Assembly (NCBI GenBank): GCA_963930775.1
Contig: OZ005698.1
Coordinates: forward strand, 868,001-932,000
Length of the DNA: 64,000 nucleotides
Reading direction: 5' to 3'
Source of the DNA: Cliona cf. orientalis
Taxonomy: Eukaryota; Porifera; Demospongiae; Clionaida; Clionaidae
Shown here: one piece after another, positions 4,228 through 39,557 of the stretch
Position numbering within the stretch: the stretch's first letter is position 1
Layout: the number at the start of each line of letters is the position of its first letter
Made by a program: the position numbers and the translations under genes
The notes under the pieces: model-generated
Told to the model about the DNA's origin: nothing
Seen by the model: only the letters and a program-made list of their open reading frames with translations
Databases searched by the model: none

Positions 4228-4461
4228 ATGGGTGAAGTACCAAACCTGACAAATGGTGCCATTCGAGTAAGTCTGCCTGAAAATTCTTCTTTAGCCCACA
4301 GCTGTGAAGGTTGTGTTGTGTGCGCTTCCTTGCTCCAGGACATTCTGGCGGGAATGCAGCTGTCCAGACCTGTTGTACAAGTCTTGGTGAGCGCGCTGAG
4401 TAGCTATATATGTGTATATTAATAGTAACTCAACAAAAAAATTATGCTACTGACAAGACTG

Positions 4462-16041: not shown

Positions 16042-16274
16042 AGTTTGGTGGTGGCTTTAGTCTCGTCCCCAGACCCCACCCTGTGGGGCCCCCGGGGACG
16101 AGACTATACATTAATTTTTACGCATGCGCGCGCACACGGGCAGCTGATTATCATGTGATGGTAATGTGACCTTCAATTTATGCGCGGGGTTTGGCGGGAA
16201 GAAACCATCTGTGCGTGCCTCTGCCTGCTTTTTTTTCTCGATTCTACATCCTTACCGTTCCACACCAAGACGAG
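16042..16274. promoter_or_regulatory. Bidirectional promoter with E2F site (copy 2, RPA1)
   Basis: This is the second copy of the divergent promoter. It has an ACGCATGCGCGCGCA NRF1-like run near 16119, TATCATGTGATGG, and the E2F consensus TTTGGCGGGAAG at 16190-16201. The RPA1 start follows 73 bases downstream. A TAGTCTCGTCCCC-type transposon remnant lies at 16058-16110. Confidence 0.6.
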
Positions 16275-19200
16275 ATGGGTGAAGTACCAAACCTGACAAA
16301 TGGCGCCATTCAAGTAAGTCTGCCTGAAAATTCTTCTTTAGCCAACAACTATGAAGGTTGTGTTGTGTACGCTTCCTTGCTCCAGGACATTCTGGCGGGA
16401 ATGCAGCTGTCCAGACCTGTTGTACAAGTCTTGGTGAGCGCACTGAGTAACTCTTTTAATATATTATTATGTGTACATTCTTTAGCAACTCAACTAACTG
16501 AATTATGCTACTGACAGTACTAGTTGTTTTAGCATATTTACACTTCATATCCTTGACTCCGGGAGTAATAACTTCATACTAACAAACTACTCTCACACAC
16601 ACAGCTTGACTATATACAAGAATGTACTTGAAATCTATTTATAACCCCCGAACCAATAGCTTCATGATCTCATAATATTATTTGTGTCTATATAATTTCC
16701 TTATAAGCCTATTGTGATTCTTAGGCTATGGCTCAAATCATAGTATAAACATTATTGTACATTTTGCAGAACATGAAGAAGATTCAGTCGAACGGTGGTC
16801 CAGATCGATACCGGCTCCAGGTGTCTGACGGCTTGCACTACCAGCCCTGCATGCTGGCCACACAGATGAATGACAGGGTCCAGAGCGGAGAGCTGTGCAA
16901 GTGGACGGTCATGGAGATCGAGAGATACATCGTCAACACCATCCACCAGAAGAAGTAAGTGTGTACATGTAAAGTGTATGTGTGTGTACAATTATACACG
17001 TGCATTACACAAGTAATACAAGGGTTCCCTACACACTAGCCAAATTAGCCATTTGCTATATACAAGCTTTGGGAATCCCTGACTGTGATCAGTGATGACA
17101 GGTGGAGAGATATGACACCCAAGTGAGAGACCTATTAGCACATGTATTGTTCTTGATTGGTATGAAAAATTAGTGAGTGAGGGTGATAGCTGTACACAAG
17201 TATTCTGAGCTATACGTGCTGTGGCATAATATTATGAGGGTGGGGCTCAAAACTATTTTACTCCTGGCATTATGTAGCCTGATCTACATGTAATTGTGTT
17301 TTAGGATAGTAGTGCTCATTATTTGGAATTGTCTCTCTCTCTCTCTCTTTATAAGGATCATTATTTTGATAGCTGTGAGGATTGTCAAACCGGGGACAGA
17401 GGTGTCTAGAGCCCTTGGCAAGCCAACTCAGCTAGAGTTGGTGTGTGTTCCCAATGGTGGTGAGGCCCCTGCACCCCGAAATCCCCACAACGGCCCCCCA
17501 GGTCCAGGGGGCCAAGGGGGAGGTGCTGGTGGAAATCGCCCTGGAGGAGGAGGAGGAGGGGGGAACCAGGGAGGAGGTGGAGGGGGATACAGAGGGGGAA
17601 ACCCTGGTAATCAGCAGCAGCAAGGCTACAGATCAGGTGAGCTTCATAATTCACTTGATTTTTGGTGACTTTGTTACTTATTTAATTTATCAATCTTGTT
17701 TCAGGTGGTCCTACTGGGCATGGAGCTAGCAGCAATGGACCTAACACAGGAGGGAGACCTCCTTTCCAAAAGTATTTTCATGCACTACCAAGCTAACATA
17801 TCCCTCTATACTGTGCATATATGTACATATTCATATGCATGCAATTCACGCCTACTATAGACACATTCACATACACTCTCTTTCACACTGCCATGTGCAC
17901 ACACTTTTTTCCAGTGCTGCTCCCCCATCTAGGCCAGGGTTCAACGGAGGTGCGTCCTCGTCTCCAGGGAGGGGTCCGTTCTCAAGCCCCACCCAGCTGT
18001 CCCAGGCGACCCTCTTCCCGATCTCCAGCCTCAACCCCTACCAGAGCAAGTGGACGATCAGAGTTCGTGTGGCATCAAAGCCGTCCATTAGGGAGTGGAG
18101 CAACTCTCGGGGACAGGGGAAGGTCTTCAATGTTGACCTCGTTGATGAGAGTGTAAGTGTGATAGCTATGTACTTGAAATTATAGCACCGTACTGTACTA
18201 TTATTAGTTATGCCATTGGTTGTTTTTTTTTTCTCTCTTGCTCTGCAGGGTGAAATTCGGGCATGTGCATTTAACCAGGTGGCTGAGAAGTTAAACTCTA
18301 CTTTTGAGATGGGAAAGGTAAGTGCTTACTATTACTCTAAGGACTTCTTCCTTTCTTTTAATACCACCCCCCCCTCCCCGAGTGAGTATAACCATAGAAT
18401 TGGAATGAGTGGAGATGATAGTGCCAAAAAATGACAGAATGAGTAGCAGAAATTTTTTTACAGACAAGATTCAACCTATAAAGGGTTGAGATAGTGTTTA
18501 AAAGTTTTAGAACAGGTGGCTGACCAAACCTGACGCCGGGGACTGCCTCTTCCTTTCCTCCAACCTTCTCCAAGTTAGGCCAGGTGGTAGTGTGCATGGC
18601 TCACCGATACTTCTACTGTTGCAGTTGATGTGAGAGGAATCAATACAGGCGGTTGTCTGTGTTTCTGAAAGTTGTTTTGACATTATGAATATCACAGCTT
18701 CCGTGCTCTTGTCATTGCGCATGCCATCTACAGAGTAGCGAAACTCGGTTGGTATTTCTTTGGATTTGCATGAAGCAAGTATTTTGATAATCATCCCCTT
18801 CTCCCTGGCTTTGTGTCCGCATGGCTTTACCCCCTGCTCATCCAAGAACTCCATACAGTCCCTCACCCAGCAGCCAGAGTAGCTACAGTCAGAGTTGATT
18901 GTTAAGACACGACCTTTGAAGTTGTGGCTTGCTTTTAGATAGAGCTGAGCAATGTCCCTGAATGTGATGAAGCCATCCTCAAAGCACCAGTCACCAGTGC
19001 CCCTCCTACCAGCTCCAATGTAGTGAAGTACAACTAAGGGATAACAGATCACATTAGCTCAGTAATAAAATGCTCAATGCTATGGTGATTCTAATCTTCA
19101 TTTAGTGAGTAATTGACATAATATATAGGTCTGAAATTTACCTCCATCATTCTCTGTGGTATATTGAGAACATGTTCTATGCTTCCCAAGACCTCTTTAT

Positions 19201-22200
19201 ATGATACTGACTGCCCTGACTTGACTTCAACAACTGAACAGTTTTTATCCAGTTTGTATCTATCCTTTATAATGCATGTGTCTAGCTGGTTATCGGACTC
19301 AGGAATCACTCCCTGGTTTAGTAGCTTCAGCTTATCCTCCTGTGTCAGTTGGCCAGGTCTCCTAGCCACCACAGCTTCAGGGTGGGGAAGGGACAGGTCA
19401 GGGGCTAGGATTAGAACATCTCTTCCACCAGCAGCATTGTATCTAGTAATTGCTGTTTCGCGCCACAATCTCCCTGGTGCCTCCTTTTTACCTTGAGCAG
19501 CCTACAATATGAGGAAAGTTTAATTAACAACAGAATTATATGCACTGGTTTGATTAAATTTTGTGATTTACCTTGTTACGGTGTAAGGCATTTCCATCAA
19601 TCTGGACACTTTTAACCTTGATATCTTCAAACAACTTTTCTGGGATGACGCTTAATGACTCCAAGAGAATGAATGCCACATTTATGCTTCCTGGAAACAC
19701 TCCCTTCCAGCCTAGTCTAATGTGTGGACTGCCACTGTATGCAGCTCGTCGCACAATGTTCACTGCTCTATCTTCTACCTCTTGGATTGTTTTATCTTCC
19801 CATCCTTCAACCTCCATGGTTAGTTCCATGCAGTAGTCTGGCACGGGAAAGCTTATGCCAACCAATTCTCTTAGCTTAGTGGTTGCTTTGAAGGCCCTTA
19901 GCTTGTCTTCATATTCTTTAACCTTGCTATGTACTCCATCAATTTTTACATCTTTTAAAATATGAGCTAAAGTGTCTGGTGTCATGTAGCTCCAATGCTT
20001 CAGTTCAGTTAGATTATCGAATAGTTTCTTTATTGTTTTTGAGTCAAGAATTTTTTGTCTTGTTTCTTTATAATTTTCATCTGTTTCATGTTGTCTTCTG
20101 ACGGATTGTGGTAGCATACGGAATCGTCTAATTATAGTGTTCAGGTTTACTTTATTGCTTTCCAGGGTATCTTCGATGAATATTACAAGATCATAGAACT
20201 CTTCTTCAAGTTTTTTTAGAGTTGATACTACTTCCTGTGGTGTGGGATCAGCTGCAAGTGACAGCGAAGACAGAGCAGCTGATGAAGCTGCACTATCTGC
20301 TCCATTGCTTCTAGCTGGGTGTGATGTCAGACTGGACTCATTGAGGCATAATAGATTTTTAGTAGTGATGTTTCTAAGTGGTCTTAAAGATTTTAAGGTG
20401 ATTACTTTCTCTGCCAAGTCAGTTCTACTGATCTGTAGTAGCACCTTTACCATTGCTTCATAAGTTGCCATGGATCCACGTCTTTGCTTCCAATGTTCAA
20501 GCATTTTTAGTGATTGTCCAACTGCATCTCCCTGGCTCTTGATATTAGCAATGTCTGAGGTGGGCATCTCTAAAAATTTGGCCAGTGTTTCCCAAATGTC
20601 CAGCGTTAGGGAGAACTGCCTTAGATGTTTATCATCAAAAGTCTCCCTCATGGTAGAACTGTCCAGCTCATAGTGTGCCAGTAGCTCATCATAGGTTGGT
20701 ACAGCCATGGTATGCTAAATTCAAAGTTACTCTCTTAAGCCTCAATAGTTAACACTGTGTGTATGTCACACATGTATTTCTATATATGGTCATTTACATA
20801 CACTATGGGGACTCCATTTTCACATAATTAGAGAAAGTGTGTCTAAGGGTTTGTGGGATGTAATTAAATAACCCAGGATAGTCCCAGCCACCCAGTGTTC
20901 ACATAAACAGCCAGTGTGGGTTTGCTATGACCATATTGGTATTGTTACCCTGCCTGCTCCTAGCAACCAGTGAATTAGTCAACTAGTATATAAGAGCTGT
21001 AATTACCATGTTTATGCTAATAGAACGCATGATCCAATTACCGCAAGAAAATTCAATTCCAGGAATTGTTTGTATTCTATTAGAACGGAAGCGACTGTCT
21101 GTAATTATTTTCTATGAATCCAATTAGCGCAATAGTGCTAAGGTGAGGCTATTGTGCATGCTCAAACCACGTGCTGCACGGATAAACCACACCTGCTTAG
21201 TAATAAACCGTTCTGGAAGCCTCTGTCTCTCGGACTCGTTGCTAGCTATAGTTAACCAAATCGCAAGTGTCGTTTGTCGTTCATGAGGGTACTAAACTAC
21301 ACTCGGGACTGACCTTAGTTGGAATTGCACTGAGTCCAGCAGCCAGGGGCCTCAGGCTGCGATCAGCATGATTCAGTGGCATCGCTAACCATGCGGCGCA
21401 GCTGTCAGAAGGCCTTTCTCAGGCTACCCTCGTGATGATCGGGGCCAGGGGCACAGGTAAGATACAATCGATAGCCACTATTCGTTGTCGCTCAAAGCTA
21501 TGCTAATTGTTCTATTATAACGCAACATCTAATTAACGCAAGAAAATTCACTTCCTGGAATTGTTTTGACTCTAATTGTGCGCAAACCAGATTTGAAATT
21601 ATTTTTTTTGCTTGCGTTCTATGAGAATAAACACGGTATGATGCTACTATTTTGATAATAATTGTTTAGTACCATAACAGAAATTAACAAATCACTAAAA
21701 ATGTCTTGCTCTAATCTCCTAACATCTTCCATGTGAGGCCAGGTGGCAATGTACATGGTTCGTCGATAGTTTTACTCTTGCAGTGGAGAAATGAGGAGTT
21801 AAAACTGTCTATTGTTTGTGACTTTAGAAGTTGTTTTGATATCCAAAATTCCATCTTTCCTGTGGAGATATCGTTGGACACACCACTCACAAGGTAACTA
21901 TATTCAGTTGGTATTTCATTTGACTTGCATGAAGCGAACACTTTGATAATCATTCCCTTCTCCCTGGCTTTGTGTCCGCATGGTTGTACCCCCTGCTCAT
22001 CCAAGAACTCCATACAGTCCCTCACCCAGGAGCCAGAGTAGCTGCAGTCAGAGTTGATTGTTAGAACACGACCTTTGAAGTTGTGGCTTGCTTGATAGAG
22101 TTGAGCGATGTCCCTGAATGTGATGAAGCCATCCTCAAAGCACCAGTCACCAGTGCCCCTCCTTCCAGCTCCAATGTAGTATAGTACAACTAGGATAGAA

Positions 22201-25200
22201 ATGAATAACGGATCACATTGCTTAATGATTCGTTTACACATATCTGCATAGCATGTTATGGCTCAGTGGACAAGGTTAAGATTGTAGGTTACACATATAG
22301 CGTGATCAGAAATTTACCTCCATCATTCTCTGTGGTATTGAGAAGATGTTCTATGCTTCCCAAGACTTCTTTATATGATATTGATCCCCCTGACTTGAAT
22401 TCAATAATTGAACAGTCTTTGTCTTGTCTGTATCTAGCCTTTATTATATCTAGCTCATTCTGGGCTTCAGGAGGCAGCCCCTGGTTTAGTAGCTTTAGCT
22501 TATCCTCCTTTGTCAGTTGGCCAGGTCTCCTAGCCACAGCCTCCTCAGGGTGGGGGAGGGACAGGTCAGGGGCTAGGATTAGGACATCTCTTCCACCAGC
22601 AGCATTGTATCTAATAACTGCTGTTTTGTGCCACAGTCTCCCTGGTGCCTCTGTTGTACCGGGAATGGCCTAAAACACAAGAAAGGTTTTACAAGGATAA
22701 ATACTGAATCAGATTTGATTTGTGATTTACCTTGCTATACTCTTTAGCATTTCCATCAACCTGAACACTTACAACCTTGTTATCTTGAAATATTCTTTCT
22801 GGGATGATTGTTACTAACTCCATGAAAATGAACATCATATTAATGCTTCCTGGAAACACTCCCTTCCAGCCTAGTCTAACGTGTGGACTGCCACTGTATG
22901 CAGCTCGTCGTACAATGTTCACTGCTCTATCTTCTACCTCTTGGATTGTTTTATCTTCCCATCCTTCAACCTCCAAGGTTAGTTCCATGCAGTAGTCTGG
23001 CACAGGAAAGCTTATGCCAACCAATTCTTTTAGTTTAGTATTGGCTTTGAAGGCCCTTAGCTTATCTTCATATTCTTTAATCTTACTATGTACTCCATCA
23101 ATTTTCACATCCTTTAAAATGTGTGTTAAAGTGTCTGGTGTCATGTAGCTCCAGTGCTTCAGTTCAGTTAGATTATCAAACAGTTCCTTCATTGATTTAG
23201 ATTTTAGAACCCTTTGTCTTGTTTCTCTGTAATATTCATCAGTTTCATGTTGTCTTCTAACGGATTGTGGTAGCATACGAAATCGTCTTGTTATAGTGTC
23301 CAGGCTTACTTGACTATTCTCTAGCGTCTGTTCGATGAATATTACGAGGTCGTAGAACTCTTCCTCAAGTTCTTTCAGAGTTGGTATCACATCTTGTGTT
23401 GGATATTCATTTGGTGTAGCTGGCTTATTTGTCTTGGGTGTTTCTAGTGAATTGATAGCATTTGAAGACTGTCGTAAAGTAATGACTTTTTCTGCCAGAT
23501 CAGTCCTATTGATTTTAAGCAGTGCTTTTACCATTGCTTCGTACGTTGCCATGGATCCGCATCTTTGCTTCCAACATTCCAGCATTCTCGTTCGCTGTTC
23601 TATCGCAGTACCCTGGTTCTTGATAGCTGTGATATCTGAGTTGGGGATTTCTAAGAACTTTGCCAGTGTTTCCAATGTGTCCAGCGCTAAGGAGAACTCT
23701 CTGAGATGCTCATCATCAAAAGTCTGTTTCATGATAGATTTCTCCATGTCATTGTTTTTCAGTAGCTCATCATAGGTTGGCACAGCCATGGTGTGTTATG
23801 TAAGTGACAGCTGCTCCTTGTTAGTACTGTGCTGTGTGTTTTTCTTACCTTACACAGAACACGCCCCGTTTTTGTTCTCCCATATCCATAATTGGTCATA
23901 CGCCCATGGCTCTCATGTTACATAAGTGAATTCAACTTTATGGTGGAGCCATTATGGTGTGGTGTAATGGGATAGTCTAGTCCAGTGCAGTCCCAGTTGC
24001 TCATGTATAATGCATTAGCAGGCCAATGGTTTTCGCTACATGTATGTATGGCAGAATATACAAGTCCAATATTATGGCACTTGAGCTAATTCTCTATCCA
24101 CATTGCAGTATGCTATGTGGTAATTGATAAAACTTATTTCAGTGGCTCGTCCAAATCACATTCCTTGTGGCTGTAGGAGATTGTAGCTAGATCCAGCTGT
24201 GTCATCAAAATAAAACCTCAACTTGCATGCCAAGCAGTCTGAGAGGATTAGGAACCATAAATTTTATTGCAGTGCCCCCAACAACTCCCCCTCCCCCCAC
24301 GCACCGTATAAACCCCACATGATAGTAGAGAATATCTCATCCAATGTACCATTGGCTATTGAAAATTTTCAGAATTTCATCATGATCTTGGAAATTACTA
24401 ATGGCAGTGGTGATAATGAGTGAAGACGTTAGTCTGAATGACTACATCATGTGCACACAGTACCCTACGATGGTTAGTTTAAAATTTGTGGTACTCCTTT
24501 CCTCACTGATTCTGGCACGCGTTGCTTGACAAAAACAGAGGACTTTCTCTTCATTTCCTGTGACGTCCTCCAAATGAAGCCTGGTGGTAGTGTGCATGGC
24601 TTATCGATACTTCTATTGTTGCATTTGAGTTCAGAAGAATCAATATGATCTGTTGTCTGTGTTTTTAGAAGTTGTTTTTCTATCCAAGATGATGTGCCTC
24701 CTGTCCTCCCGATATTATACATGCCATTTACAGGGTAGTGAAACTCTGTTGGTATTTCTTTTGACTTGCATGAAGTGAACACTTTGATAATTATTCCCTT
24801 CTCCCTGGCTTTGTGTCCGCATGGCTGTACCCCCTGCTCATCCAAGAACTCCATACAGTCCCTCACCCAGCAGCCAGAATAGCTGCAGTCAGAGACGATC
24901 GTCAGAACACTGTGCTTAAAGTGGGTTAGATAGAGTTGAGTGATGTCCCTGAATGTGATGAAGCCATCCTCAAAGCACCAGTCACCAGTGCCCCTCCTAC
25001 CAGCTCCCATGTAGTACAGTGCGACTAAGGTAGAAATGAATAACAGATCACGTTAACTCAGGAATGAATCTACACAGCACTATGGCTCAGTGGACAACAT
25101 TAAGGTTACAGGATACTTGTAAATGTATAGTATGATCAGAAATTTACCTCCATCATTCTCTGTGGTATTGAAGACATGTCTTATGCTTCCCAAGGCTTCT

Positions 25201-28200
25201 TTATATGATACTGACCGCCCTGACATGATTTCAACAATTGAACAGTCTTTAGCACATCTATATCTAGCCGTAATAATATCTAGTTCATTATCGAACTCAG
25301 AAATCACCCCCTGGCTTAGTAGCTTTAGCTTATCTCCCATTGTCAGTTTTCCAGGTCTCCTTGCCACAGCCTCAGGGTGGGGGAGGGACAGGTCAGGGGC
25401 TAGGATTAGAACGTCCCTTCCTCCACCAACTGAATACACTGTTCCACCTTCGCTGTTCCATAGCCTCCTTGATATCTCACTTTTATGGATCGATACTGCT
25501 GACTGTTGTTTGTAGTCAGTTAAACAAGGACTAGAAGCGGACTATAGTATAAGGATAAAGTAGGATAAAAAAATTAAGCAAGTTAGGATGCAGGGTGCTT
25601 TGAGTTGCAATTTACCTTAGTGTGATCTTTACTACAAACGGTATTTCCATCAATATGGATACTTACAACTCCACTCTCTTCAGAAAACCTTTCAGGGACA
25701 GGCTTTACTGACTCCACAAGAATGAATGTCACATTTATGCTTCCTGGAAACACTCCCTTCCAGCCTAGTCTAACTTGTGGACTGCCACTGTATGCAGCTC
25801 GCCGCACAATGTTCACTGCTCTATCTTCTACCTCTTGGATTGTTTTATCCTCCCATCCTTCAACCTCCATGGTTAGTTCCATGCAGTAGTCTGGCACTGG
25901 ATAGCTTATGCCAACCAATTCTCTTAGCTTAGTATTGGCTTTGAAGGCCATTAGTTTGTCTTTATATTTTTTAACCTTACTATGTACACCATCAATATTC
26001 ACATCCTTAAGAATATGTGCTAAAGTGTCTGGTGTCATATAGCTCCAGTGCTTTAGTTCAGTTAGATTGTCGAATAGTTTCTTTATTGTTCTAGAATCAA
26101 GAATCTTTTGCCTAGTTGCTGTGTAATTTTGATCTGTTTCATGTTGTCGTCTGACAGATTGTGGTAGCATACGAAATCGTCTTGTTATAGTGTTCAGGCT
26201 TATTTCACTATTCTCTAGAGTGTCTTCAATGAATATTACCAGGCCATAGAACTCTTCTTCAAGTTCTCTCAGAGTTGATATCACATCTTGTGCTGGGTAT
26301 TCATTTGGTGCAGCTGGTAGTGACAATGGAGACATGGCTGCTTGTAGTGATGCTTCCTTTATTCCACTACTGCTAGCTGGAAAAGTGGGTTTTTCCAGGC
26401 TGGATTCTCTAGGGGAAAGTAGCCTCTGGTTGGTAGTAGCTGTTGCTAATGAGGGGATAGTGTTTGAAGACTTTTGTAAAGCGATAATTTTTTCTGCCAG
26501 GTCAGTCCTGTTAATTTTAAGCAGTGCTTTTACCATTGCTTCATATGTTGCCATGGATCCGCATCTTTGCTTCCAACATTCCAGCATTGTCATTCGTTGT
26601 TCTATCGCACATCCCTGACTCTTGATAGCTGTGATATCTGAGTTGGGAATTCCTAAGAACTTTGCCAGTGTTTCCAACGTGTCCAGTGCTAAGGAGAACT
26701 CTCTGAGATGCTCATCATCAAAAGTCTGTTTCATGATAGATTTCTCCACTTTGTAGTGTGCCAGTAGCTCATCATAGGTTGGTACAGCCATGGTGTGCTA
26801 AATAAGTGATAGGTGCCCCTGGTTGATACTGAGCTGTGAGCTGTGTGTCTTACCTCACAAAGAACACTTCCTGTTTTTTGAAATTTTGTTTTTCCATATA
26901 TAGTCATTGGTAAGTGTACGCCCACGGCTCCCATGTCATATCAACTGTCCACTGTGGTGTGTGTAATTGGATTTATAGTCCAGGGCAGTCCTAGTTGCTC
27001 ATGCATGAGTAGGCCAGTAGGGTTTATTGCATACATCTGCAGCTAAATCTCGAACATTGCCAAAAGTATTATACTCTTGACATTGCAGTGTGCTATATCG
27101 GAGCTCCTGATTAATTGGTTCAATCGTTACAGTATCTTCTCTAATAATGAAGGAAGACATTAGTATGAATGGGTATTCATTTTTTGTTGATGTGCACACA
27201 GTACCCTACAATAGTTACTGGTGTTGTGGTACTCCTTTCCTCACTGATCCTAATACTTGTTCCCTGATAGAACCAGAGTGACTTTCTCTCATTTCCTCCA
27301 AGTGAGGCCAGGTGGTAGCATGCATGGCTCATCGATACTTCTACTGTTGCAATTGATATGAGAGGAATCAATACAGGCTGTTGTCTGTTTTTCTGAAAGT
27401 TATTTTATCATCATGAATATTACAGTTCCTCTGCTCTTATCATTGCGCATACCACTCACGCAGTGGCAATATTGGGTTGGTATTTCTTTAGATGTGCATA
27501 AAGCAAGTATTTTGATAATCATTCCCTTCTCCCTGGCTTTGTGTCCGCATGGCTGTACCCCCTGCTCATCCAAGAACTCCATACAGTCCCTCACCCAGCA
27601 GCCAGAGTAGCTACAGTCAGAGACGATTGTCAGAATCCGACCTTTGAAGTTGTGGCTTGCTCTTAGATAGAGCTGAGCGATGTCCCTGAATGTGATGAAG
27701 CCATCCTCAAAGCACCAGTCACCAGTGCCCCTCCTACCAGCTCCAATGTAGTATAATACAACTAGGGTAAAAATGAATAATAAATCGTGTTATGGCTCAG
27801 GTGGCAGTTTACGTAAATGTCTCTCCTTAAAAGAATGCATGCAGCATACGCATTATATGATATAGATCTTTCAATTGATATAAGTTGGGAAATGTGGGGC
27901 AACGGACGATTGATCCTGATGGAGTTTTTAAATAGTTTACTGTAAATCGCAAATATTTTGTGTTTTAAATATTTCATGCGATAAATTTTCGCATTAAATA
28001 ATTTTTAGACAAACGACCTTGTACCGCATTATCATTAATATTGTGCATGTATTTTCGTGCGTTGCATTTTTGCACAAGCCAGGCTGTCCGAAAATATTTT
28101 AACAACGAAATATTCGCGATTTACGGTATCAGAGGAGAGGCCAGCTATAGGTAAAAGTTGATGTATTGTTTCATTACTCACTATATGAGAAATGCCCAGC

Positions 28201-31200
28201 ATGGTTGAACAGTCACCCATATATAGTAACCTTAATTTTTTGGCATTATACGTACTTGTATAATTATAGTGTGATTAGAAAAATTTACCTCCATCATTCT
28301 CTGTGGTATTGAGAAGGTGTTCTATGCTTCCCATGACATCTTTATATGATATTGATTTGACTTCAACAATTGAACAGTTTTTTGCAAGTCTATATCTAGC
28401 CTTTATAATATCTAGCTCATTATCGGACTCAGGAAATACTCCCTGGCGTGGTAGCTTCAACTTATCTTCATCCATCAGTTGGCCAGGTCTCCTAGCCACA
28501 GCCTCATGGTGGGGGAGGGACAGATCAGGGGCTAGGATTAGAACATCTCTTCCACCAGCAGCACTGTATCTAATAATTACTGTTTCGCGCCATAGTATCC
28601 CTGGTACCTCCATTTTACCATAAGCAGCCTACAAAGTGACGAAAATTTGATTAATAACAGAAGTACTGGTTTAATTTGTAATTTACCTTGTTATACCCTT
28701 TACAATGGAAGGCATTTCCATCAATTTGGACACTTATGATCTTGATATCTTCAAAAAACTTTTCTGGGATGACCGTTACTGACTCCATGAGAATGAATGC
28801 CACATTTATGCTTCCTGGAAACATTCCCTTCCATCCTAGTCTAACATGTGGACTGCCACTTATACAGCTCGTCGCACAATATTCACTGCTCTATCTTCTA
28901 CCTCTTGGATTATTTTATCTTCCCATCCTTCAACCTCCATGGTTAGTTCCACGCAGTAGTCTGGCACGGAAAGCTTATGCCAACCAACTCTCTTAACTTA
29001 GTATTGGCTTTGAAGGCTAATAGCTTCTCTTTGTATTCATCAATCCTTTTATGCACATCATCAATTTTCACATCCTTAAGAATGTGAGCCAAAGTGTCTG
29101 GTGTCATATAGCTCCAGTGCTTCAGTTCAGTTAGATTATCGAATAGTTTCTTTATTGTTTTTGAATCAAGAATTTTTTGTCTTGTTTCTTTATAATTTTC
29201 ATCTGTTTCATGTTGTCTTCTGACGGATTGTGGTAGCATACGGAATCGTCTAGTTATAGTGTCCAGGCTTACTTCACTATTTTCTAGAGTATCTTTGATG
29301 AATATTACAAGGTCGTAGAACTTTTCCTCAAGTTCTCTCAGAGTTGGTATCACATCCTTGTGTTGGATATTTATTTGGTGATAATGGAGACATGGCTGCT
29401 TGTAGTGATGCTTCCTCTATTCCACTACTGCTAGCTGGAAAAGTGGGTTTTTCCAGGCTGGATTCTCTGGGGTATGATAGACTCTGGTTGGTAGTGGCTG
29501 TTTCTAGTGGATTGATAGCATCTGAAGACTTTCGTAAAGTGATGACTCTTTCTGCCAGATCAGTCCTATTGATTTTAAGCAGTGCTTTTACCATTGCTTC
29601 GTATGTTGCCATGGATCCGCGTCTTTGCTTCCAACATTCCAGCATTCTCATTCGCTGTTCTATTGCAGTTCCCTGGTTCTTGATAGCTATGATATCTGAG
29701 TTGGGAATTCCTAAGAACTTTGCCAGTGTTTCCAACGTGTCCAGTGCTAAGGAGAACTCTCTGAGATGCTCATCATCAAAAGTCTGTTTCATGATAGACT
29801 TCTTCACATCATAGTGTGCCAGTAGCTCATCATAGGTTGGCACAGCCATGGTGAAGTGACATGTGCCCCTAGTTAAGGGTGCTTCACCTAACAGCACATT
29901 AAGTGTTATGGAATGTTCTATCATGTTGCTATCTACACGCTACAAGACCACAAACCACACACATAATGATATTCATGATTGATAAGCGTCCTGCAACTAT
30001 ATACACTAGCTGTTACTCGGGACCCTTTACCTTGCATTCCAGACGAGCGAAGCCTTAATCAACCTTATTTTTGATTCATTATAAGCAACAATATAGCCTT
30101 GGTACTCGTGCCACCTAGTAATATCTAGTTCATTCTTAGTCCTTTTACCACCCCCTGAGTGAGCATAAGCATACAAATCTTATAAGGGGGCTGTATGCCA
30201 CCCCACCCCCCAAAAGATCTTTTTGGAAAGGGATTAAATCTTTAATTTGACAATACGTCACAGCAAAAAGAAATTGGAATGGTACAAAAAAGTGTCATAA
30301 CTAGAGTTACAGGAATATTTATAGACAAGATTCTACCTATAAGGAGTTACTGGAGTGTTTGAGTGTTTTCTAGTGCTGCAGGTACCTGACCAAACCTGCC
30401 GTCTGTTTAACAAGAACAGGGGGCTTTCTCTTCCTTTCCTCCAACCCTTTCCAAATGAGGCCTGATGGTAGTGTGCATGGCTCATCGATACTTCTACTGT
30501 CGCATTTGATGTGAGAGGAATCAATACCAGCGGTTGTCTGTGTTTCTGATAGTTGTTCTGACATTTTGAATGTCATAGCTCCTGTGCTCTTATCATTGCC
30601 CATACCACTCACGCTGTGGCAATACTCAGTTGGTATTTCTTTGGATTTGCATGAAGCATGTATTTTGATAATCATCCCCTTCTCCCTGGCTTTGTGTCCG
30701 CATGGCTGTACCCCCTGCTCATCCAAGAACTCCATACAGTCCCTCACCCAGCAGCCAGAGTAGCTACAGTCAGAGAAGATTGTCAGAACACGACCTTTGA
30801 AGTTTTGGCGTTCTTTTAGATAGAGTTGAGTGATGTCCCTGAATGTGATGAAGCCATCCTCAAAGCACCAGTCACCAGTGCCAGTTCTACCAGCTCCAAT
30901 GTAGTGAAGTACAACTAGGGTAAAAATGAAAACTCAGTAGTCTAATCTTCGTTTACACATATCTACATATTATACTATGGCTCAGTATACAACATTAAGG
31001 TTACAGGTGGCAGTTTGCATACATGTAAAAATGTTTCATGAAAGTATAGTAACACCAATTAATATTATAATAGATGCTATAGAGTAGTGTTAAAAACAGC
31101 TGTCACAACTTTGAATTGACTACACTGTCATTAAGTTTAAACTGTGATCGATCCCAACAGATAGACTTCAAATTTAAACCAATTCAGATGTCTGAGCAAT

Positions 31201-34200
31201 AATAAGAAATACTTCTTGCCATCAAAGGAGAGGCCAGGTGATAGGTGACGTACTGGTTTTATTTATTGTTTACTTTACTATGAGAAATGCCCACACATGG
31301 GTGAGCAATCACCTGTAACCTTAATTTACATACAGTACAACCTCGATTATCAAATCTCCTTGGGGCAAAGGGAAATTTCGAACCATTCGGATAACGTTGA
31401 CCATGCCCAAGCCACACCCACAAAATGGATCATGTATGCAAGAATGTATACCGTAGGTTGGGTATTGAATGCGAGATTCTTTTGATTGCGAATTGCGAAT
31501 TTTTACACAAGACGCAATCAAAAGAATTGCAGGAAAAAGAATACGCAATGAATAATGTTACATGTGACCACACCCTTTTGTGCGTGTACTCACTTGCGAT
31601 CCCAAACATACACGCGTTATCTATACCACCAAGAGTATATAATATATACTCTTGATATCTCGCGTGCTCGATTTACTTGCATGCATGTACGCATAGCTGT
31701 CGATCGTCGAGAATGAGTCTTCTTCGATTCTTCAAGCCAACTGCCAACCTGCCAGCACCATAGCCACCACCAAGCCAAGTGCAACTGTCGCTCGAGCAGT
31801 ATGGTATTCTATTAATAGCCCACCCACCCCACATGCAGCCTCACAAGCCACACCTCCTCTGTGGCTAAAATTGAGGGTGTGGCTTTCTTGTTTGGCTATT
31901 CGCAATCATTAGAATTGCAATCTGGCCTATATAGCATCATTCGCAATCGTTTAACTACGCATTCAAAACCCGACATACGTTATATGATAGAGTTATCGAG
32001 CATTTCGACGATTTTAATTCCAGAAAATGCAGGGTCAAAAAACACATTAATTGTGACCACGTGACCTGACCGTCTTGCGCATGTGTAGTAAACCTACGTC
32101 GCAGAGTTGCCACGCGAGAACCAGCTGCTGAACTGCTATCAAATCTAGTTCTAATGCTCAAAGAAGTAAAAGAAACGTAACATAAGTATTCTATCAATCG
32201 AGGATCTTTGCATTTCGAGTTCGGATAATCGAGGGTTCGGATAATCAAGGTTGGACTGTACTTGTATATAGCATGATCAGAAATTTACCTCCATCATTCT
32301 CTGTGGTATTGAAAACATTTTCTATGCTTCCCAAGACTTCTTTATATGATACTGACCGCCCTGACTTGACTTCAACAATTGAACAGTGTTTAGCAAGTCT
32401 GTATCTAGCCGATATTATATCTAGTTCACTATTGGACTCAGGAATTATCCCCTGGCTTAATAGCTTCAGCTTATCTGCTACTGTCAGTTGTCCAGGTCTC
32501 CTAGCCACAGCCTCAGGGTGGGGGAGGGACAGGTCAGGGGCTAGGATTAGAACATCTCTTCCACCAGCGGCGTTGTATCTAATAGTCGCTGTTTTGTGCC
32601 ACAGTCTCCCTGGTACCTCTGTTTTACCAGGAGTGACCTAAAACACAAGAAAGGTTAAATTAGAGAAATACTGGCTTGATTTATGATGTACCTTGGTATA
32701 TTCTTCATGGTGAAGAGCATTTCCATCAACCTGGACACTTATAACTTCGTTATCTTCAAAATATTTTTCTGGAATAAGCTTTACAGGTTCCATGAGAATG
32801 AAAATCACATTTATGCTTCCTGGAAACACTCCCTTCCAGCCTAGTCTAACGTGTGGACTGCCACTGTATGCAGCTCGTCGCACAATGTTCACTGCTCTAT
32901 CTTCTACCTCTTGGATTGTCTTATCTTCCCATCCTTCAACCTCCATGGTTAGTTCCATGCAGTAGTCTGGCACAGGAAAGCATGTGTTTATCAACTGTCG
33001 TAGCTTTGTGGTTGCTTTGAAGGCCCTTAATTTATCTTCATATTCTTTAACCTTGCTGTTTACTTCATCAATATTCACATCCTTTAAAATATGAGCTAAA
33101 GTGTCTGGTGTCATATAGCTCCAGTGCTTTAGTTCAGTTAAATTGTCAAATAGTTTCTTTATTGTTCTAGAATCAAGAATCTTTTGCCGAGTAGCTGTGT
33201 AATTTTCATCTGTTTCATGTTGCCTTCTGACGGATTGTGGTAGCATACGAAATCGTCTAATTATAGTGTTCAGATTGACTCTATTGTTTTCCAGGGTATC
33301 TTCGATGAATATTACAAGGTCGTAGAACTCTTCCTCAAGTTCTCTTAGGGTTGACATCACATCTTGTGGTTGGCGTTCATTTGGTGTAGCTGATAGTGGT
33401 AATGGAGACATGGCTGTTTGCAATGATGCTTCGTCTTTTCCACTACTGCCAGCGGGAAAAATGGGTGATATCGGGCTAGGGAATGGTAGAATCTGGTTGG
33501 TAGTGGCTGTCTCTGGTGAATTGATAGTGATAGAAGATCGCTGTAAAGTGATGACCTTTTCTGCCAGGTCAGTCCTGTTGATTTTGAGTAGTGCTTTTAC
33601 CATTGCTTCGTATGTTGCCATGGATCCGCATCTTTGCTTCCAACATTCCAGCATTCTCATTCGCTGTTCTATCGCACATCCCTGATTCTTGATAGCTGTG
33701 ATATCTGAGTTGGGAATTCCTAAGAACTTTGCCAGTGTTTCCCACGTGTCCAGTGCTAAGGACAACTCTCTGATAATCTCACCATCAAAAGTCTGTTCCA
33801 TGATAGATTTCTCCATGTTATATTTTGCCAGTAGCTCATCATAGGTTGGTACAGCCATGGTGTGCTAAATAAGTGACAGGTACCCCTGGTTGATGCTGTG
33901 CTGTGTGTTTTTTTTTTTTTTACCTTACACAGAATACGCCCTTTTTTAAGTTTGTTTTCCCATGTATGGTCATGTGCCCACGGCTCTTTTATTACATTAG
34001 TGAATTCAACTGTTTGGGGAGCCATTATGGTGTGGTATAATTGTATTTATAGTCCTGGGCTATCCCAGTTGCTGTAGGAGGTTGTAGCTAGATCCATCAG
34101 TGTGTCATCAAAATAATAGCATGAGAAGCAAATTGTTGCGGTGCCCCAACTACTTCCCCACCCCTCCCCCATACCATTTGTTACTGAAATTTGTAGTTTT

Positions 34201-37200
34201 ATGTTGATTTGTCTTGGGAATTATCTCTAACTTAAAGGGTGTGGCGATAATGAGGGAATACATTAGTCTGAATGGGTAATCATGACTATCCTTAATCATG
34301 TGCACATATACTACCCTACAATGGTGAATTGCTATTGTTGTGGTACTCCTTTGCTCATTGATTCTGACACCCGCCTCTCGACAGAAACAGAGGACTTTCT
34401 CTTTGACCTCCTCCAAGTGAGGCCAAGTGGTAGAAGAGTGCATGGCTCGTCGATACTTCTACTATCACATTTGATGTGAGAGGAATCAATACAGGCGGTT
34501 GTCTGTGTTTCTGAAAGTTGCTTTGACATCTTGAATGTCACAACTCCTGTGCTCTTGTCATTGCGTATACCATTCACGCAGTGGCAGTATTTGGTTGGTA
34601 TTTCTTTGGATTTGCACGAAGCAAGTATTTTGATGATCATTCCTTTCTCCTTGGCTTTGTGTCCGCATGGCTGTACCCCCTGCTCATCCAAGAACTCCAT
34701 ACAGTCCCTCACCCAGCAGCCAGAGTAGCTACAGTCAGAGACGATTGTCAGAACCCGACCTTTGAAGTTGTGACTTGCTTTTAGATAGAGCTGAGCGATG
34801 TCCCTGAATGTGATGAAGCCATCCTCAAAGCACCAGTCACCAGTGCCCCTCCTACCAGCTCCAATGTAGTGAAGTATAACTAAGGAATAATTGAAATGCT
34901 ATAATAATCTGCTATAATCTTCATTACACATTATCTGCATATACCATATTGTAACATTAAGGTTATAGGTGGTAGTTTACATAAGAAATGTTTCTTACAA
35001 GTTTTAACAGTATACCAAGTTTTAAGATAGGTTATCATAACTTCAAAATTAATGGACTACACCCTCAGTGAAGTTTGCAATTGAGCTGTGATTGATCCTG
35101 ACAGACTTCAAATTTGCACTATTTCAGATGTCTGAGCCATATAATAAGGAAAGAGAGGCCAAGTGAAGGTGCTTTTATTTGTAGTTTGCCTCATCATTGC
35201 TCACTATGAGTGAGTAATGCCCACACATAATTGGGCAATCACCTATAACCTTAATTTTTTTGCATCATACATATTATTAGTGTGATCAGAAATTTACCTC
35301 CATCATTCTTTGTGATATTGAAAATATGTTCTATGCTTCGCAAGACCTCTTTACATGATATTGACCACCCTGACTTGACTTCAACAATTGAACAGTCTTT
35401 TACAAGTCTGTATCTAGCCTTTATAATATCTAGTTCATCCTGGCAGTCGGATGGCAGCCCCTGGTTTAGTAGCTTCAGCTCATCCTCCTGTGTCAGTTGG
35501 CCAGGTCTCCTAGCCACCACAGCCTCAGGATGGGGGAGGGACAGGTCGGGGGCTAGGATTAGAACATCTCTTCCACCAGCAGCGCTGTACCTAATATTAA
35601 TTGCTGTTTTGTGCCACAATCTCTCTGGTGCCTCTATTTTACCAGGAGCGGCCTATATACAACATAAGAAAGGCTTGATTAAAGTAAGTAGTAATGAAAA
35701 ATGTTTTTCATAATGAACTGTGGTTATATAGTCTGTATCCTTGCAAGAGGGTTGATTATGATTTACCTTAGTGTGATCTTTACTGTAAATGGTATCTCCA
35801 TCAATGTGGATACTTACAACTCCACTATCTTTAAAAGACTTTTCTGGAATGACCAAGAGAATGAATGTCACATTTATGCTTCCTGGAAACACTCCCTTCC
35901 ATCCTAGTCTAACGTGTGGACTGCCACGGTATGCAGCTCGTCGCACAATATTCACTGCTCTATCTTCTACCTCTTGGATTGTCTTATCTTCCCATCCTTC
36001 AACCTCCATGGTTAGTTCTATGCAGTAGTCTGGCACGGGAAAGCTTATGCCAACCATTTCTCTTAGTTTAGTATTGGCTTTGAAGGCCCTGAGCTTGTCT
36101 TCATATTCTTTAACCTTACTATGTACTCCATCAATTTTCACATCCTTTAAAATGTGAGCTAAAGTGTCTGGTGTCATATAGCTCCAGTGCTTTAGTTCAG
36201 TTAGATTGTCAAACAGTTTCTTTATTGTTCTAGAATCAAGAATCTTTTGCCTAGTGGCTATGTAATTTTCATCTGTTTCATGTTGTCGTCTGACGGATTG
36301 TGGTAGCATACGAAATCGTCTAATTATAGTGTTCAGGTTTACTTTATTGCTTTTCAGGGTATCTTCGATGAATATTACAAGATCATAAAACTCTTCCTCA
36401 AGTGCTCTGAGCGATGTTATTATTCTTCGTTCACGTGGCATAGCTGGTAGAGATATTGGAGATATGGCAGCTGGTGAACAAGCATCTTCTATTCCGCTGC
36501 TACTAGTTGGTGAAGTAGGTACCATCGAACTAGACTCTTTCGAAATCTGGTTAGCGATAGTTTTTTTAAGTTTGGGGATATCACTTGAAGACTTTCTTAA
36601 AGTGATTACTCTTTCCGCCAAATCAGTTCTACTGATCTGTAACAGTGCCTTGACCATTGCTTCATATGTTGCCATGGATCCACACCTTTGTCTCCAGCAT
36701 TCAAGCATTCTCATTCGTTGTTCCTCTGTGTCTCCCTGGCTCTTGATGTTTGCGATATCTGGGCCTGGTAGTCCTATGAATCTGGCTAGCTTTTCCCACG
36801 TGTCCAGTGATAACGAGAACTGCCTCAAGTCCTCACTATTGAAGGTTGATTTCATGGTAGGTTTTTCCACTTCATAGTGTGCCAAGAGTTGGTCATAGGT
36901 TGGTACAGCCATTGTCTGCTAACTTTTCATCAAAATCACAGGTCGTCCTAGCTACTATGGTGTGCTTTTCTTGTGTTGCATTAGTAACTTCCTGCAACGG
37001 TTAGTCGTTTGGTTTTATATGGTCATAGGTGATTAATGTGGTATCACAGTCATAATTTTTCAATCATGGGGTATGCAGATATACCGTAATACTATAGCTG
37101 GAAATTTTTTATTTGGTACTCATGAAGGCGGATTGCCAAACTGCCAAATAATTTCCCATATTATATTTTCTGGCTTTAGGCTAATAATTATGTATAGTGG

Positions 37201-39557
37201 AGGATAGGGTGATATTGCTTGGGCTGAATATGTAATATTGAATCACCCCCCCCCCCTTATACACACACTTGTACACACACTTAGGTATACTTTGTCAGTC
37301 GTGGTAGACTTCGACCTGCCAACAAACAGTTCAACACCACAAAGAATGACTATGAGCTCACTCTCAATGAAGACTCGGTTATAGAACTGGTGAGAACAAG
37401 ATAGGTTACTACTAGTATAGATGGAGCCTTCTCATTCATTCATGTCCATGTTGATAGCAGCCAAACTGTACTAGAGCACCACAGACCCTTCCATTTCATG
37501 TCTATCAGTCGTATAGCATTAAAGATACAGAATCTTAATATTTTTGGTGACTACATTTTACTACATGAGTACACTTGATGGAATGTTGTTTTATCTCTGC
37601 AGTGTACTGACTCTGTGTCAGACTCCCAGCTGCCCACTGTGCAGTACAACTTCAGACACATTGCTGATCTGGAGAGCGTGGAGCCAAACCAGCTAGTGGG
37701 TGAGTCAGCTATGTTTCATGCATGTAGTGGAGCAGGTTTGGCATTAAGGCCTATACAATGAGATATCTATGAGATAGCTTATATATCCTGATTATGAATT
37801 TGTCCTGATTTTATAGAAGAAATCCTCAATATGAATCAATGGTAGCCATCTGCAAACTTACTTTTCTTAAGCTATTCACATATTAATATAATATTATTAT
37901 TGTAGATGTGATTGGTATTTGCAAGAGTGCTGCTGATGTCGCCTCCATCATAACCAAGACCACCAACAAGAAGCTCTCTAAACGCGAGCTCCAGCTGGTC
38001 GATCGCTCGGGACGCGAGGTCACATGCACTCTCTGGGGGGCAGAGGCCGAGGGGTTCGATGGCTCAAATTTCCCCGTGGTGGCCATCAAGGGGGCCAGGG
38101 TGTCTGATTTTGGTGGGCGTTCCCTGTCGACACTGTTTAGCAGTCTTCTGACGGTTGATCCTGATATCCCTGAAGCTCACCAGCTGAGGGGCTGGTTTGA
38201 TAATGTCGGCAAGAATGAGCAGACGACTTCTCTCTCTGACCAGAGAGGAGGTGGAGGAGGAGGTAAGTCTGTGGTAGCTCGAGTCTAATATTATACCGTA
38301 TTGCGGGAATTAAATTTGGCGGTTGAGCCCAAAATCGCCAGTGCAAGAATATTAGCGGATTTAAATTTGGTGGTTTGGTACGGGATTGCCATATGTATAT
38401 ATGCGAGTGGGAAATTTTGGCGGATTTTAATTTGGCGGTTGTAATATAGACCACCAAACTGCCAAATTTAATTCCCCGCCAAATTTCTGGCTATACGGTA
38501 CTCGCATTTTTACTCTCTCTCCTTTCTCTCTCTCTCTCCGTTCCCCCTCCCACGCAGGTTCCCAGGCCTCCTTCCTGACTCTTCAGCAAGTCAAGGAGCT
38601 AGACCTTGGTCACGGAGACAAACCAGACTACTTCAGTTGCAAGGCATCCATTTCTTTTGTCAAATCTGAGAACTGTCTCTACAAAGCTTGTCCTAATGCT
38701 GACTGTAACAAGAAGGTGACAGAGAACTCCAACACAGGAGAGTACCACTGTGACAAGTGCAACCAATCCTTCCCCAACTTCAAGTATCGATTGATCCTTG
38801 CTGTGAGTGACTGAATATGTACAAATTGCACAATGTCATACAGTTACTTCCTAGTCTCGCCTAGCAGTACTAGTACGGGATTTTCACTAGAAAATCATCC
38901 TAAAAGGGCTCCTAAGAGCAATATGAGTCTGATATATCGATATGGGAATTTTTTTTTGTTTTGTTTTTTTTGTGTGTGATGTAATATGTGGCAGTATATA
39001 ACAAAATAGTGAAATTTTAAATTTTGTGCTGTCACTTTCCCATGTGCAGATCAACACTGCTGACTATTCCTCCAGCCAGTGGGTGACCTGTTTCCAGGAC
39101 ACAGGGGTGGAGATTCTTGGATGCTCCGCCCAGGAGCTGGGGGACCTCCGAGACCAGGACTCTCCCGACTACAACAATGCCTTCCAGAGGGCAAACTTTA
39201 AGGACTACATATTCCGAGTCAGGGCTAAGATGGATAATTACAACGTAAGCTGTGTATTGTGTGCTCTAGAAAGGGCTATAATAGATCAATAATTGCTGAG
39301 CTTAGAGGCAAATAATCAACATTTGAGCTCTAGATGCATTTGTGTGATGACAGTTACCAAAACTATGAATAATAGTAATTTTGAGATGTCAAAGTTCTGG
39401 AAGAATAATATCATGACGTTTGTTTAATAGAAGCTACTTTTTGATTTTCTAGGATGAGACTCGTTTGAAGTGCTACTGTGTGGGTGTACAGCCTGTCAAC
39501 TATGCTCAAGAGGCTCGCAGGCGCATCGAGGAAATCAAACAGATCATGGCAAATTAA
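16275..39557 (+). CDS. RPA1: Replication protein A 70 kDa DNA-binding subunit
   Basis: Large subunit of RPA, the eukaryotic single-stranded-DNA-binding trimer of replication, repair and checkpoint signalling. Twelve exons join in frame to about 700 aa: 16275-16433, 16770-16954, 17356-17636, 17705-17771, 17915-18152, 18249-18317, 37285-37389, 37603-37699, 37906-38262, 38558-38802, 39050-39244, 39453-39557. Residues 1-115 are the RPA70N domain. Residues 135-230 form an unusually long Gly/Asn/Gln linker. DBD-A starts near [11 protein letters not shown], and DBD-B spans about 385-495. DBD-C carries the zinc ribbon Cys564, 569, 584 and 587 (C-X4-C-X14-C-X2-C). The 6th intron is about 19 kb and houses six antisense Death-domain genes. 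The join M-G-K / V-Y-F-V across it restores the conserved DBD-A strand. Family length is usually near 620 aa; the excess is in the linker. Confidence 0.95.
18507..20708 (-). pseudogene. D1: Death domain + pseudo-caspase-like gene, frameshifted
   Basis: Three-exon plan: 20708-19572 (379 codons), 19501-19142, 19033-18507. Exon 1 begins [10 protein letters not shown] with the Death domain at about residues 1-105, then the conserved linker ([32 protein letters not shown]). Near the end of exon 2 two extra bases (TA, about 19173) shift the frame relative to the five sister genes, so the exon sum is not a multiple of three. Exon 3 is otherwise a full caspase-like C half with Y-I-G-A-G and S-D-C-S-Y-S-G. 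It is the member nearest the RPA1 5' exons. It is either a recent pseudogene or a protein ending shortly after exon 2. Confidence 0.75.
20709..21710. mobile_element. Spacer D2-D1 with a TACC-type MITE (21004-21638)
   Basis: The upstream region of D1 contains an element that starts TACCATGTTTATGCTAATAG and ends GAATAAACACGGTA. Its arms include paired AAGAAAATTCA...TCC(A/T)GGAATTGTTT segments at 21046 and 21549. The interior shows no transposase. The rest is promoter and downstream flank without a recognised gene. Confidence 0.65.
21711..23789 (-). CDS. D2: Death domain + pseudo-caspase-like protein
   Basis: Exons 23789-22731 (353 codons), 22669-22318 and 22189-21711 sum to 630 codons (629 aa) without a break. 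The order is Death domain (about 1-105), a shortened linker (about 25 residues less than D3 or D5), conserved helical/beta module, then the caspase-like domain. The latter has [11 protein letters not shown] near its start, [13 protein letters not shown] at the usual His motif and S-D-C-S-Y-S-G-S-W at the usual Cys motif. The C terminus is about 25 residues shorter than D3. It is likely a Death-domain-recruited signalling or decoy protein without protease activity; that is inference. Confidence 0.75.
23790..24473. promoter_or_regulatory. D3-D2 spacer with conserved upstream block
   Basis: The first 250 bp upstream of each D start share short words (CTGTGCTGTGTG, TACCTTACACAGAA, CGCCCATGGCTC). 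They appear again upstream of D3 (26800-26940) and D5 (33860-33990). This suggests that the promoter was duplicated with each gene. No other gene is seen. Confidence 0.45.
24474..26791 (-). CDS. D3: Death domain + pseudo-caspase-like protein
   Basis: Exons 26791-25616 (392 codons), 25502-25148 and 25024-24474 sum to 694 codons (693 aa) with no internal stop. The Death domain and linker are as in the other D genes, with a Ser/Pro/Ala-rich spacer at about residues 115-165. Exon 2 is unusual. Its first 30 residues and the segment before G-G-G-R-D-V differ clearly from the sisters, and its acceptor seems to have moved. The caspase-like motif reads Y-Y-M-G-A-G (Met where the others have Ile) and S-D-C-S-Y-S-G. 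Same inferred role as D2. Confidence 0.75.
26792..27399. other. D4-D3 spacer
   Basis: It holds the D3 upstream block and, at 27220-27400, the decayed end of the D4 third exon beyond its premature stop (recognisable as the D-family C terminus). No separate gene. Confidence 0.5.
27400..29849 (-). pseudogene. D4: Death domain + pseudo-caspase-like pseudogene
   Basis: Exons correspond to 29849-28687, 28628-28289 and 27761-27400. Exon 1 is broken by an extra base near 29356 (after the Death domain), a missing base near 28969 and another near 28860. Exon 3 ends early at a stop (27400) where the sisters have a Gln codon. The motifs Y-I-G-A-G and D-C-S-Y-S-G are still present. Only the Death domain (about 165 residues) could be made from the first frame. 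Confidence 0.8.
27938..28128. mobile_element. TACCGTAAATCGCG-type MITE in D4 intron 2
   Basis: It starts TACTGTAAATCGCAAATATT and ends AATATTCGCGATTTACGGTA. About 190 bp, inverted, no coding. Confidence 0.75.
29850..30369. other. D5-D4 spacer
   Basis: No gene recognised. A stretch at 30140-30350 resembles 18355-18490 downstream of D1 (ACCACCCCC, GAGTGAG, ATAAGCAT and the C-terminal flank), so the duplicated unit includes 3' flank. Confidence 0.45.
30370..33858 (-). CDS. D5: Death domain + pseudo-caspase-like protein
   Basis: Exons 33858-32692 (389 codons), 32637-32289 and 30914-30370 sum to 687 codons (686 aa), open throughout. The Death domain is at residues 1-105, a Ser/Thr/Pro spacer at 110-165 and the conserved linker module at 170-385. 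The caspase-like domain spans about 390-620, with Ala513 in G-A-G where metacaspases have the catalytic His, and Ser556 in D-C-S where they have the catalytic Cys. The basic E-E-R-K-R-K tail is followed by the stop. The exon 1 donor is GTACAT, slightly off consensus. Intron 2 is enlarged by a pogo-type MITE (31333-32258). It is one of the best-preserved members. Confidence 0.78.
31333..32258. mobile_element. Pogo/Tigger-type MITE in D5 intron 2
   Basis: The ends CAGTACAACCTCGATTATC and GATAATCAAGGTTGGACTG are flanked by TA. No transposase frame. It contains a second nested element at 31450-31982. Confidence 0.8.
31450..31982. mobile_element. TACCGTAGGT-type MITE, copy 2 (nested)
   Basis: The left end ACCGTAGGTTGGGTATTGAA and the right end CATTCAAAACCCGACATACG match the element at 9446-9656, with the same ATTGCGAATT internal words. 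It is nested inside the pogo-type element. Confidence 0.65.
33859..34331. promoter_or_regulatory. D6-D5 spacer with duplicated upstream block
   Basis: It contains the same CTGTGCTGTGTG / TACCTTACACAGAA words as upstream of D2 and D3. No other gene. Confidence 0.4.
34332..36912 (-). CDS. D6: Death domain + pseudo-caspase-like protein
   Basis: Exons 36912-35767 (382 codons), 35652-35298 and 34879-34332 sum to 683 codons (682 aa), open throughout. The start is [13 protein letters not shown]. The Death domain is the most diverged of the six ([11 protein letters not shown]). The linker module is conserved, including V-P-D-Y-C-I-E-L and P-G-S-I-N-V-T-F. The caspase-like domain has V-I-L-H-Y-I-G-A-G and S-D-C-S-Y-S-G. 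It is the first gene of the array in its own reading direction and lies about 370 bp from RPA1 exon 7 on the other strand. Confidence 0.77.
37083..37180. repeat. Fragment of the GGCGGATT/AATTTGGC MITE
   Basis: It starts ATACCGTAATACTATAGCTG and contains GGCGGATTGCCAAACTGCCA, related to the element at 38294-38500. The right end is decayed. Confidence 0.5.
38294..38500. mobile_element. TACCGTA MITE in RPA1 intron 9
   Basis: A 207 bp hairpin from TACCGTATTGCGGGAATTAA to the reversed GGCTATACGGTA. The arms share AATTTGGCGG / CCGCCAAATT words. It lies 57 bp before the exon 10 acceptor. Confidence 0.8.

Follow-up and report, generated by a model that had tools for sequence, protein, structure and literature searches.

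A Death-domain gene array within and beside RPA1 in the sponge Cliona cf. orientalis

As modelled here, the transcript of RPA1, an essential single-copy repair gene, must traverse a fast-changing array of death genes in Cliona cf. orientalis. This unusual arrangement raises the question of whether host and array are tied by shared control or have come to share a locus through local duplication, as well as of what kind of proteins the array encodes. The window analyzed is the whole stretch of 64,000 nucleotides (C10:868001–932000), in an assembly of 216.8 Mb and 149 contigs that was taken as given. Coordinates, including negative ones, are those of the window unless a contig is named.

RPA1 and the genes inside its sixth intron

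The model of RPA1, built by hand on the plus strand, comprises 12 exons separated by introns that are all of the GT-AG type, and it encodes 700 amino acids with no internal stop. Exons 1–6 (16275–16433, 16770–16954, 17356–17636, 17705–17771, 17915–18152, and 18249–18317) were placed by GT-AG boundaries, the open frame, and alignment with RPA70, and exons 7–12 (37285–37389, 37603–37699, 37906–38262, 38558–38802, 39050–39244, and 39453–39557, the last including the stop codon) by the gene model and the same alignment. Between them lies intron 6 (18318–37284, plus strand), with a length of 18,967 bp. Exon 6 ends at 18317 with ATGGGAAAG, followed by GTAAGT, and exon 7, preceded by ACTTAG, begins at 37285 with GTATAC, in phase 0. 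The spliced product matches human RPA70 (PDB 8rk2_A, E 5.2e-171) in a single stretch spanning residues 220–695, which covers the OB folds and the C-terminal domain and crosses the intron 6 junction with no gap. The exons on the two sides of the intron thus join in frame, as the original prediction had stated, and the other ten introns, which it had put below about 800 bp, measure 68–401 bp. We infer that splicing of RPA1 still bridges the array. The gene is single-copy, since the search of the full assembly (17 of 17 candidates scored) returned 15 matching pieces, namely the 12 exons and three upstream copies of exon 1 or exon 2. No relatives of exon 9 were confirmed in a collection of prokaryotic contigs.

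Intron 6 is filled by direct repeat units of ~3–4 kb, each with one minus-strand gene of three exons, and the starts of the six copies are spaced by 3159, 2894, 3069, 4007, and 3063 bp. The exact junctions and the common strand of all six copies confirm, at the level of sequence, that the array is nested wholly inside the intron and is antisense to its host. Each copy was checked individually for its splice sites and frame. Whole frames are found in genes F (34332–36912; exons 36912–35767, 35652–35298, and 34879–34332; 682 aa), E (30370–33858; exons 33858–32692, 32637–32289, and 30914–30370; 686 aa), C (24474–26791; exons 26791–25616, 25541–25148, and 25024–24474; 706 aa), and B (21711–23789; exons 23789–22731, 22669–22318, and 22189–21711; 629 aa). 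Gene D (27290–29849) is broken, with three frame changes in exon 1 and a stop in exon 3, and gene A (18507–20708), in which exon 1 is open, loses its frame at the exon 2–3 junction and has a predicted product of 531 aa. The count of six genes therefore stands for three-exon copies, but just four of them have a whole frame. Pairwise dN/dS values for the full coding sequences of B, C, E, and F (0.32–0.41 in six pairs) indicate that these four are under purifying selection, with exon 2 under looser constraint (0.51–0.68). At the ends of the intron, ~100 bp on the left and 359 bp on the right lie outside the repeat units and are unrelated to them in sequence, so the host intron was probably once of ordinary size.

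The orientation of the array and its span of 19 kb speak for transcriptional interference, in which RPA1 transcripts, antisense to the death genes, would keep their levels down in cells engaged in division or repair. We consider this quite unlikely, with two of the six intron copies decayed and with the poly(A) signals on the plus strand of intron 6 not depleted (five AATAAA compared to 5.5 expected, a weak check). Furthermore, eight copies of the array lie outside the intron, beyond transcription from the main RPA1 promoter.

Domains of the encoded proteins

Exon 1 encodes a Death domain, a helical stretch, and a small α/β domain. The identity of the first, already proposed from the sequence, is borne out by PF00531 matches above the cut-off of 22.6 bits (43 bits, E 5e-11, in F; 47.9 bits in I, a copy farther upstream) and by profile matches to PDB chains of THOC1 (4e-7), FAS (7e-7), and RIPK1 (9e-4). 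In the middle part, the DED signal is weak and below the cut-off (19 bits versus 35.9, E 0.0017, in I; 0.14 in F), and the helical stretch is perhaps DED-like. An AF2 model of exon 1, built from six window sequences, has a mean pLDDT of 51, with 59–80 (blocks of ten) in the Death domain and mostly less than 50 in the C-terminal part. At that low confidence, the latter part follows the order β-α-β-β-α-β plus a fifth short strand, with a conserved GS in the turn that links strand 2 to strand 3. TRADD-N, in the description by Kaur et al. 2021 (PMC8195603), is an RRM-like domain in which a four-stranded sheet is combined with two helices and the strand 2–3 turn carries a small-residue-Ser motif; the same account lists 357 TRADD-N proteins in the sponge Amphimedon, most of which combine Death-like domains and TRADD-N with a C terminus that varies and may include a caspase. 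The TRADD-N model PF13820 found nothing in the Cliona genome and was silent in all 14 controls too. Relatives of exon 1 were sought by alignment in a collection of viral contigs, and none were confirmed there.

Exons 2 and 3 encode the C-terminal part of the array proteins. A genome-wide search in which all 32 candidates were scored gave 28 matches to exon 3, 26 of which were aligned; the two omitted are pieces of one broken copy on contig C9 and read alike at both sites. The catalytic columns were assigned by reading the GHG and DxCxSG patterns. The position of the His is occupied by Ala in ten copies (nine on C10 and one on C6), by Pro in 13 (all on C9), and by His in three (all on C3), and the position of the Cys by Ser in 23 and by Cys in the same three copies on C3. 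Both of the residues expected for catalysis, the His and the Cys, are thus absent from 23 of the 26 relatives, and the pair by which an active clan CD peptidase would be recognized is kept in none of the nine exon-3 copies at the RPA1 locus, broken D included. By its likely fold, the C-terminal domain is a probable clan-CD pseudo-peptidase.

Profile searches with this domain gave weak signals. Pfam returned nothing above the cut-off for the exon-3 domains of the array, the sub-threshold matches being to the CASPase-like Raptor_N (0.088, in F) and to C14 (0.095, in one of 26). NCBIfam gave weak matches only, with a caspase model at 0.33 in two of 26, and a profile search of the PDB found no matches up to an E of 10. 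Peptidase_C14 is matched 47 times elsewhere in the genome and not once in the array, and an hhalign comparison of the domain against nine caspases encoded in the genome yielded no significant match (E 0.64 and 0.56). The term "caspase-like", used in the original prediction, may be kept for the likely fold family but not for the catalytic residues, which are replaced in all nine copies at the locus, nor does the hhalign comparison lend it significance. No relatives of exon 3 were confirmed by alignment search in prokaryotic or viral contig collections.

The three relatives on C3 (L031, C3:897001–906500), arranged in tandem, keep YTGHG and TDCC[YN]SG. Each was joined from two exons, and in Pfam two of them match C14 below the cut-off (0.0085 and 0.011), one of these also matching C13 (0.0092), while the remaining copy matches C25 (0.064) and C13 (0.094). 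In the pieces examined, these relatives are without a Death domain. At C9:6.22–6.48 Mb, the pseudo-peptidase domain forms another large array, in which the position of the His is occupied by Pro.

The array upstream of RPA1 and the copied promoter

The middle domain of exon 1 is present in 14 copies, all on the minus strand, between 839 and 905 kb of C10 (124 kb searched), and these copies flank exons 1–6 of RPA1 on both sides. Intron 6 contains A–F; of the others, G and H lie 5′ of RPA1 within the window, and I–N are located farther upstream, outside it. The earlier description of 19 kb filled by the array is correct for the intron, but the array also continues upstream of RPA1. Copies I (668 aa) and M (667 aa) are whole, and H (2809–4023, minus strand) has an open exon 1 with Death and TRADD-N-like domains. 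Stops or frame breaks are found in G, J, K, and N; in G (13736–16041, minus strand), it is exon 1 that is broken. Copy L (~−19383 to −22080, on C10, L011/L012; one in-frame stop, TGA) has a tandem DED in place of the Death domain (PF01335, 5.4e-31, two stretches) and the same exon-3 domain, a predicted layout of tandem DED, middle domain, and pseudo-caspase that comes near to that of c-FLIP. Beyond G and H, open frames at 10079–10462 and 875–1510 (both minus strand) have in common, by eye, a short KRLFDKSEG-like stretch. The former contains a glycine zipper (PF13488, 2.7e-06) and is possibly an exon for another C terminus of G/H; similar pieces are also present on the plus strand upstream. Open frames at 118–802 (minus strand), adjoining H, resemble, by eye, a retroelement reverse transcriptase.

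In the tree of the middle domain (14 copies, unrooted splits), A–F are separated from the other eight copies with a support of 100, J, K, and N, located upstream of RPA1, form a clade (100), and A–F together with J/K/N are split from G, H, I, M, and L at 80. The intron 6 array would most likely be derived from the neighboring array. In the tree of the Death domain (12 copies), F groups with J/N (support 80), and in the exon-3 tree (nine copies) the support for A–F is just 41, so exchange between copies is likely, blurring the story of a single entry. Entry by duplication of RPA1 exons 1–6, followed by loss of the second set, was also considered. This route is not supported: no pieces of RPA1 exons are found in intron 6 (exon search over the 124-kb region), and no similarity to the RPA1 promoter is seen in the sequence upstream of F.

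It is highly improbable that the arrangement is an artefact of assembly, with alternative haplotypes or array copies misplaced inside RPA1. The I/M blocks are 86–93% alike (four longest pieces) and the G/H blocks 77–94%, which leaves room for unmerged haplotypes among the upstream copies. This does not apply to B, C, E, and F, which are separated from one another by dS of 0.37–0.48, far more than alleles. In addition, the flanks lie in one 9.8-Mb contig, and the 124-kb stretch examined contains no N.

The 5′ end of RPA1 has itself been copied beside the outer genes. The 124-kb region contains exon 1, in whole or in part, four times, namely in the gene, at 4228–4386 (plus strand; 96% identical, open, donor GT kept), at ~−5202 (95%, last half only), and at ~−23651 (82%, with insertions). 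Exon 2 is found twice, in the gene and at 6731–6915 (plus strand; 96% identical, open, AG and GT kept). Each of the four exon-1 copies faces a death gene (G, H, I, or M) across a related promoter block. Copy G is head-to-head with RPA1 exon 1, with 233 bp between the ATGs (16042–16274, E2F-like core at 16190–16200), and the duplicate stretch at H is 204 bp long (4024–4227, core at 4145–4155). An 84-base query from the promoter core has four matches in the genome, all at the RPA1 locus, with identities of 98, 98, 76, and 73%. The E2F-like 11-mer TTTGGCGGGAA, which we take to be an E2F-type site, is present in each of the four head-to-head units, with no other occurrence across the 124 kb (two occurrences in the window compared to 0.02 expected). 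Among 53 loci it has one further match, at a caspase locus on C7 (L039) that is unrelated.

A palindromic element (TCTCGTCCCCAG...CTGGGGACGAGA) is also seen in or near the head-to-head promoters, at 16061–16103, 4043, 2101, and −5644. The half-element TCTCGTCCCC is present at all four places, and the complete pair of halves is seen in G and, with slight changes, in I; in unit I, the element breaks a sequence that is uninterrupted in unit M. The copy of exons 1–2 (4228–6915, plus strand) is in phase with RPA1 exon 3, behind its own promoter copy. Although evolving neutrally, with dN of 0.039 and dS of 0.040 and no constraint visible, it is a possible alternative N terminus of RPA1.

These copies bear on the view that the whole arrangement is a positional accident, in which the array came to lie in the intron by drift and affects neither gene, and the promoter copies are passive by-products of duplication. 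We regard this as somewhat doubtful. Nearby duplications are frequent and messy, the copied exons 1–2 are neutral, and several array copies are broken, all of which would agree with an accident; on the other hand, the E2F-like motif is intact in four of four units despite the strong divergence of the adjoining death genes, with I separated from B, C, E, and F by dS of 1.1–1.4, and no break is seen in I, M, or exon 1 of H. Long branches separate G/H from I/M in both exon-1 trees, which means that the promoter block either spread after the split of the death genes or is held by selection, and a recent spread would cancel the argument from motif retention.

The RPA1 promoter and first exon copied beside the flanking death genes are, as a lead, a more concrete link than the interference proposal, and a stronger pointer to shared control than antisense silencing would be, with the tie to RPA1 mainly positional. 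A fuller version, in which an S-phase-type promoter of RPA1 serves as a copied control cassette before G, H, I, and M while RPA1 transcription through the intron is antisense to A–F, is a long shot. If it were true, cells making RPA1 would also make pseudo-caspase brakes (or alarm adaptors), one locus would tie single-strand-DNA stress to the threshold of cell death, and the duplicated exon 1–2 pair could supply an alternative N-terminal domain of RPA1. With four copies of the RPA1 promoter facing death genes, the question of replication state versus cell death becomes approachable in Cliona cf. orientalis.

Proposed origin and comparison with known systems

The reading that we favor, with some reserve, is the local expansion of a family of Death/TRADD-N-like adaptors with a pseudo-caspase part, which entered intron 6, duplicated there, and acts in a manner similar to c-FLIP. 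Such adaptors would combine a Death domain, a helical (perhaps DED-like) stretch, a TRADD-N-like domain, and a caspase-like domain with no catalytic residues. The family would have arisen as a minus-strand array adjoining RPA1. A single member or block of it would have moved into intron 6, at that time of ordinary size, and tandem duplication would have yielded six copies, two of which later decayed. The location of the array in RPA1 is thus most likely the result of local duplication. Expansions of this kind would be of the immunity type, in which genes duplicate and decay fast, and some of the members just 5′ of RPA1, behind promoter copies, are predicted to have the cell-cycle control of RPA1.

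Purifying selection combined with the loss of catalytic residues fits the role of a non-cutting adaptor in death or immunity. The array proteins look like switched-off relatives of caspases rather than killers, and are most likely regulators of death or immune signaling that act without cleavage. Like c-FLIP, they would probably join Death-domain complexes, where they would hold a real caspase, scaffold it, or block it, with no cutting of their own. The catalytically empty family and its three relatives on C3 with catalytic residues form a natural pair for the question of how a protease becomes a regulator.

Among known systems, the closest in architecture described in the cited account are the TRADD-N proteins of the NCOA6 clade, from Amphimedon and other marine invertebrates (Kaur et al. 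2021, PMC8195603), in which N-terminal domains of the Death superfamily are followed by an RRM-like domain with a small-residue-Ser turn and by a variable C terminus that can include a caspase. Large lineage-specific expansions are a further likeness, and neither RPA1 nor intron nesting is mentioned in the passages of that paper describing these proteins. In contrast to them, the array domain is unmatched by PF13820 (to which the controls are silent too), and the caspase-like part lacks catalytic residues. In c-FLIP, a DED is combined with an inactive caspase domain, according to the same source (PMC8195603). The array shares with it the fusion of one or more death-fold domains to a catalytically dead caspase-like domain, and copy L shares the tandem DED as well, whereas A–F have Death and TRADD-N-like domains and their C-terminal domain is not recognized as a Pfam C14 caspase.

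A death-gene array in an intron of RPA1 was not found among the papers listed by the literature searches, at the level of titles and abstract openings. Nested genes are independent genes that lie on the opposite strand inside a host intron. Unlike the usual cases, the locus described here has six tandem copies in one intron, the family resumes past the 5′ exons of the host, and the promoter and exon 1 of RPA1 have been copied alongside the outer array. Replication genes, in turn, can have bidirectional promoters with E2F sites, and these are resembled by the short head-to-head spacing at G and H (233 and 204 bp) together with TTTGGCGGGAA; what distinguishes the RPA1 locus from them is that the pair is present four times and that the partner is a death-domain gene.
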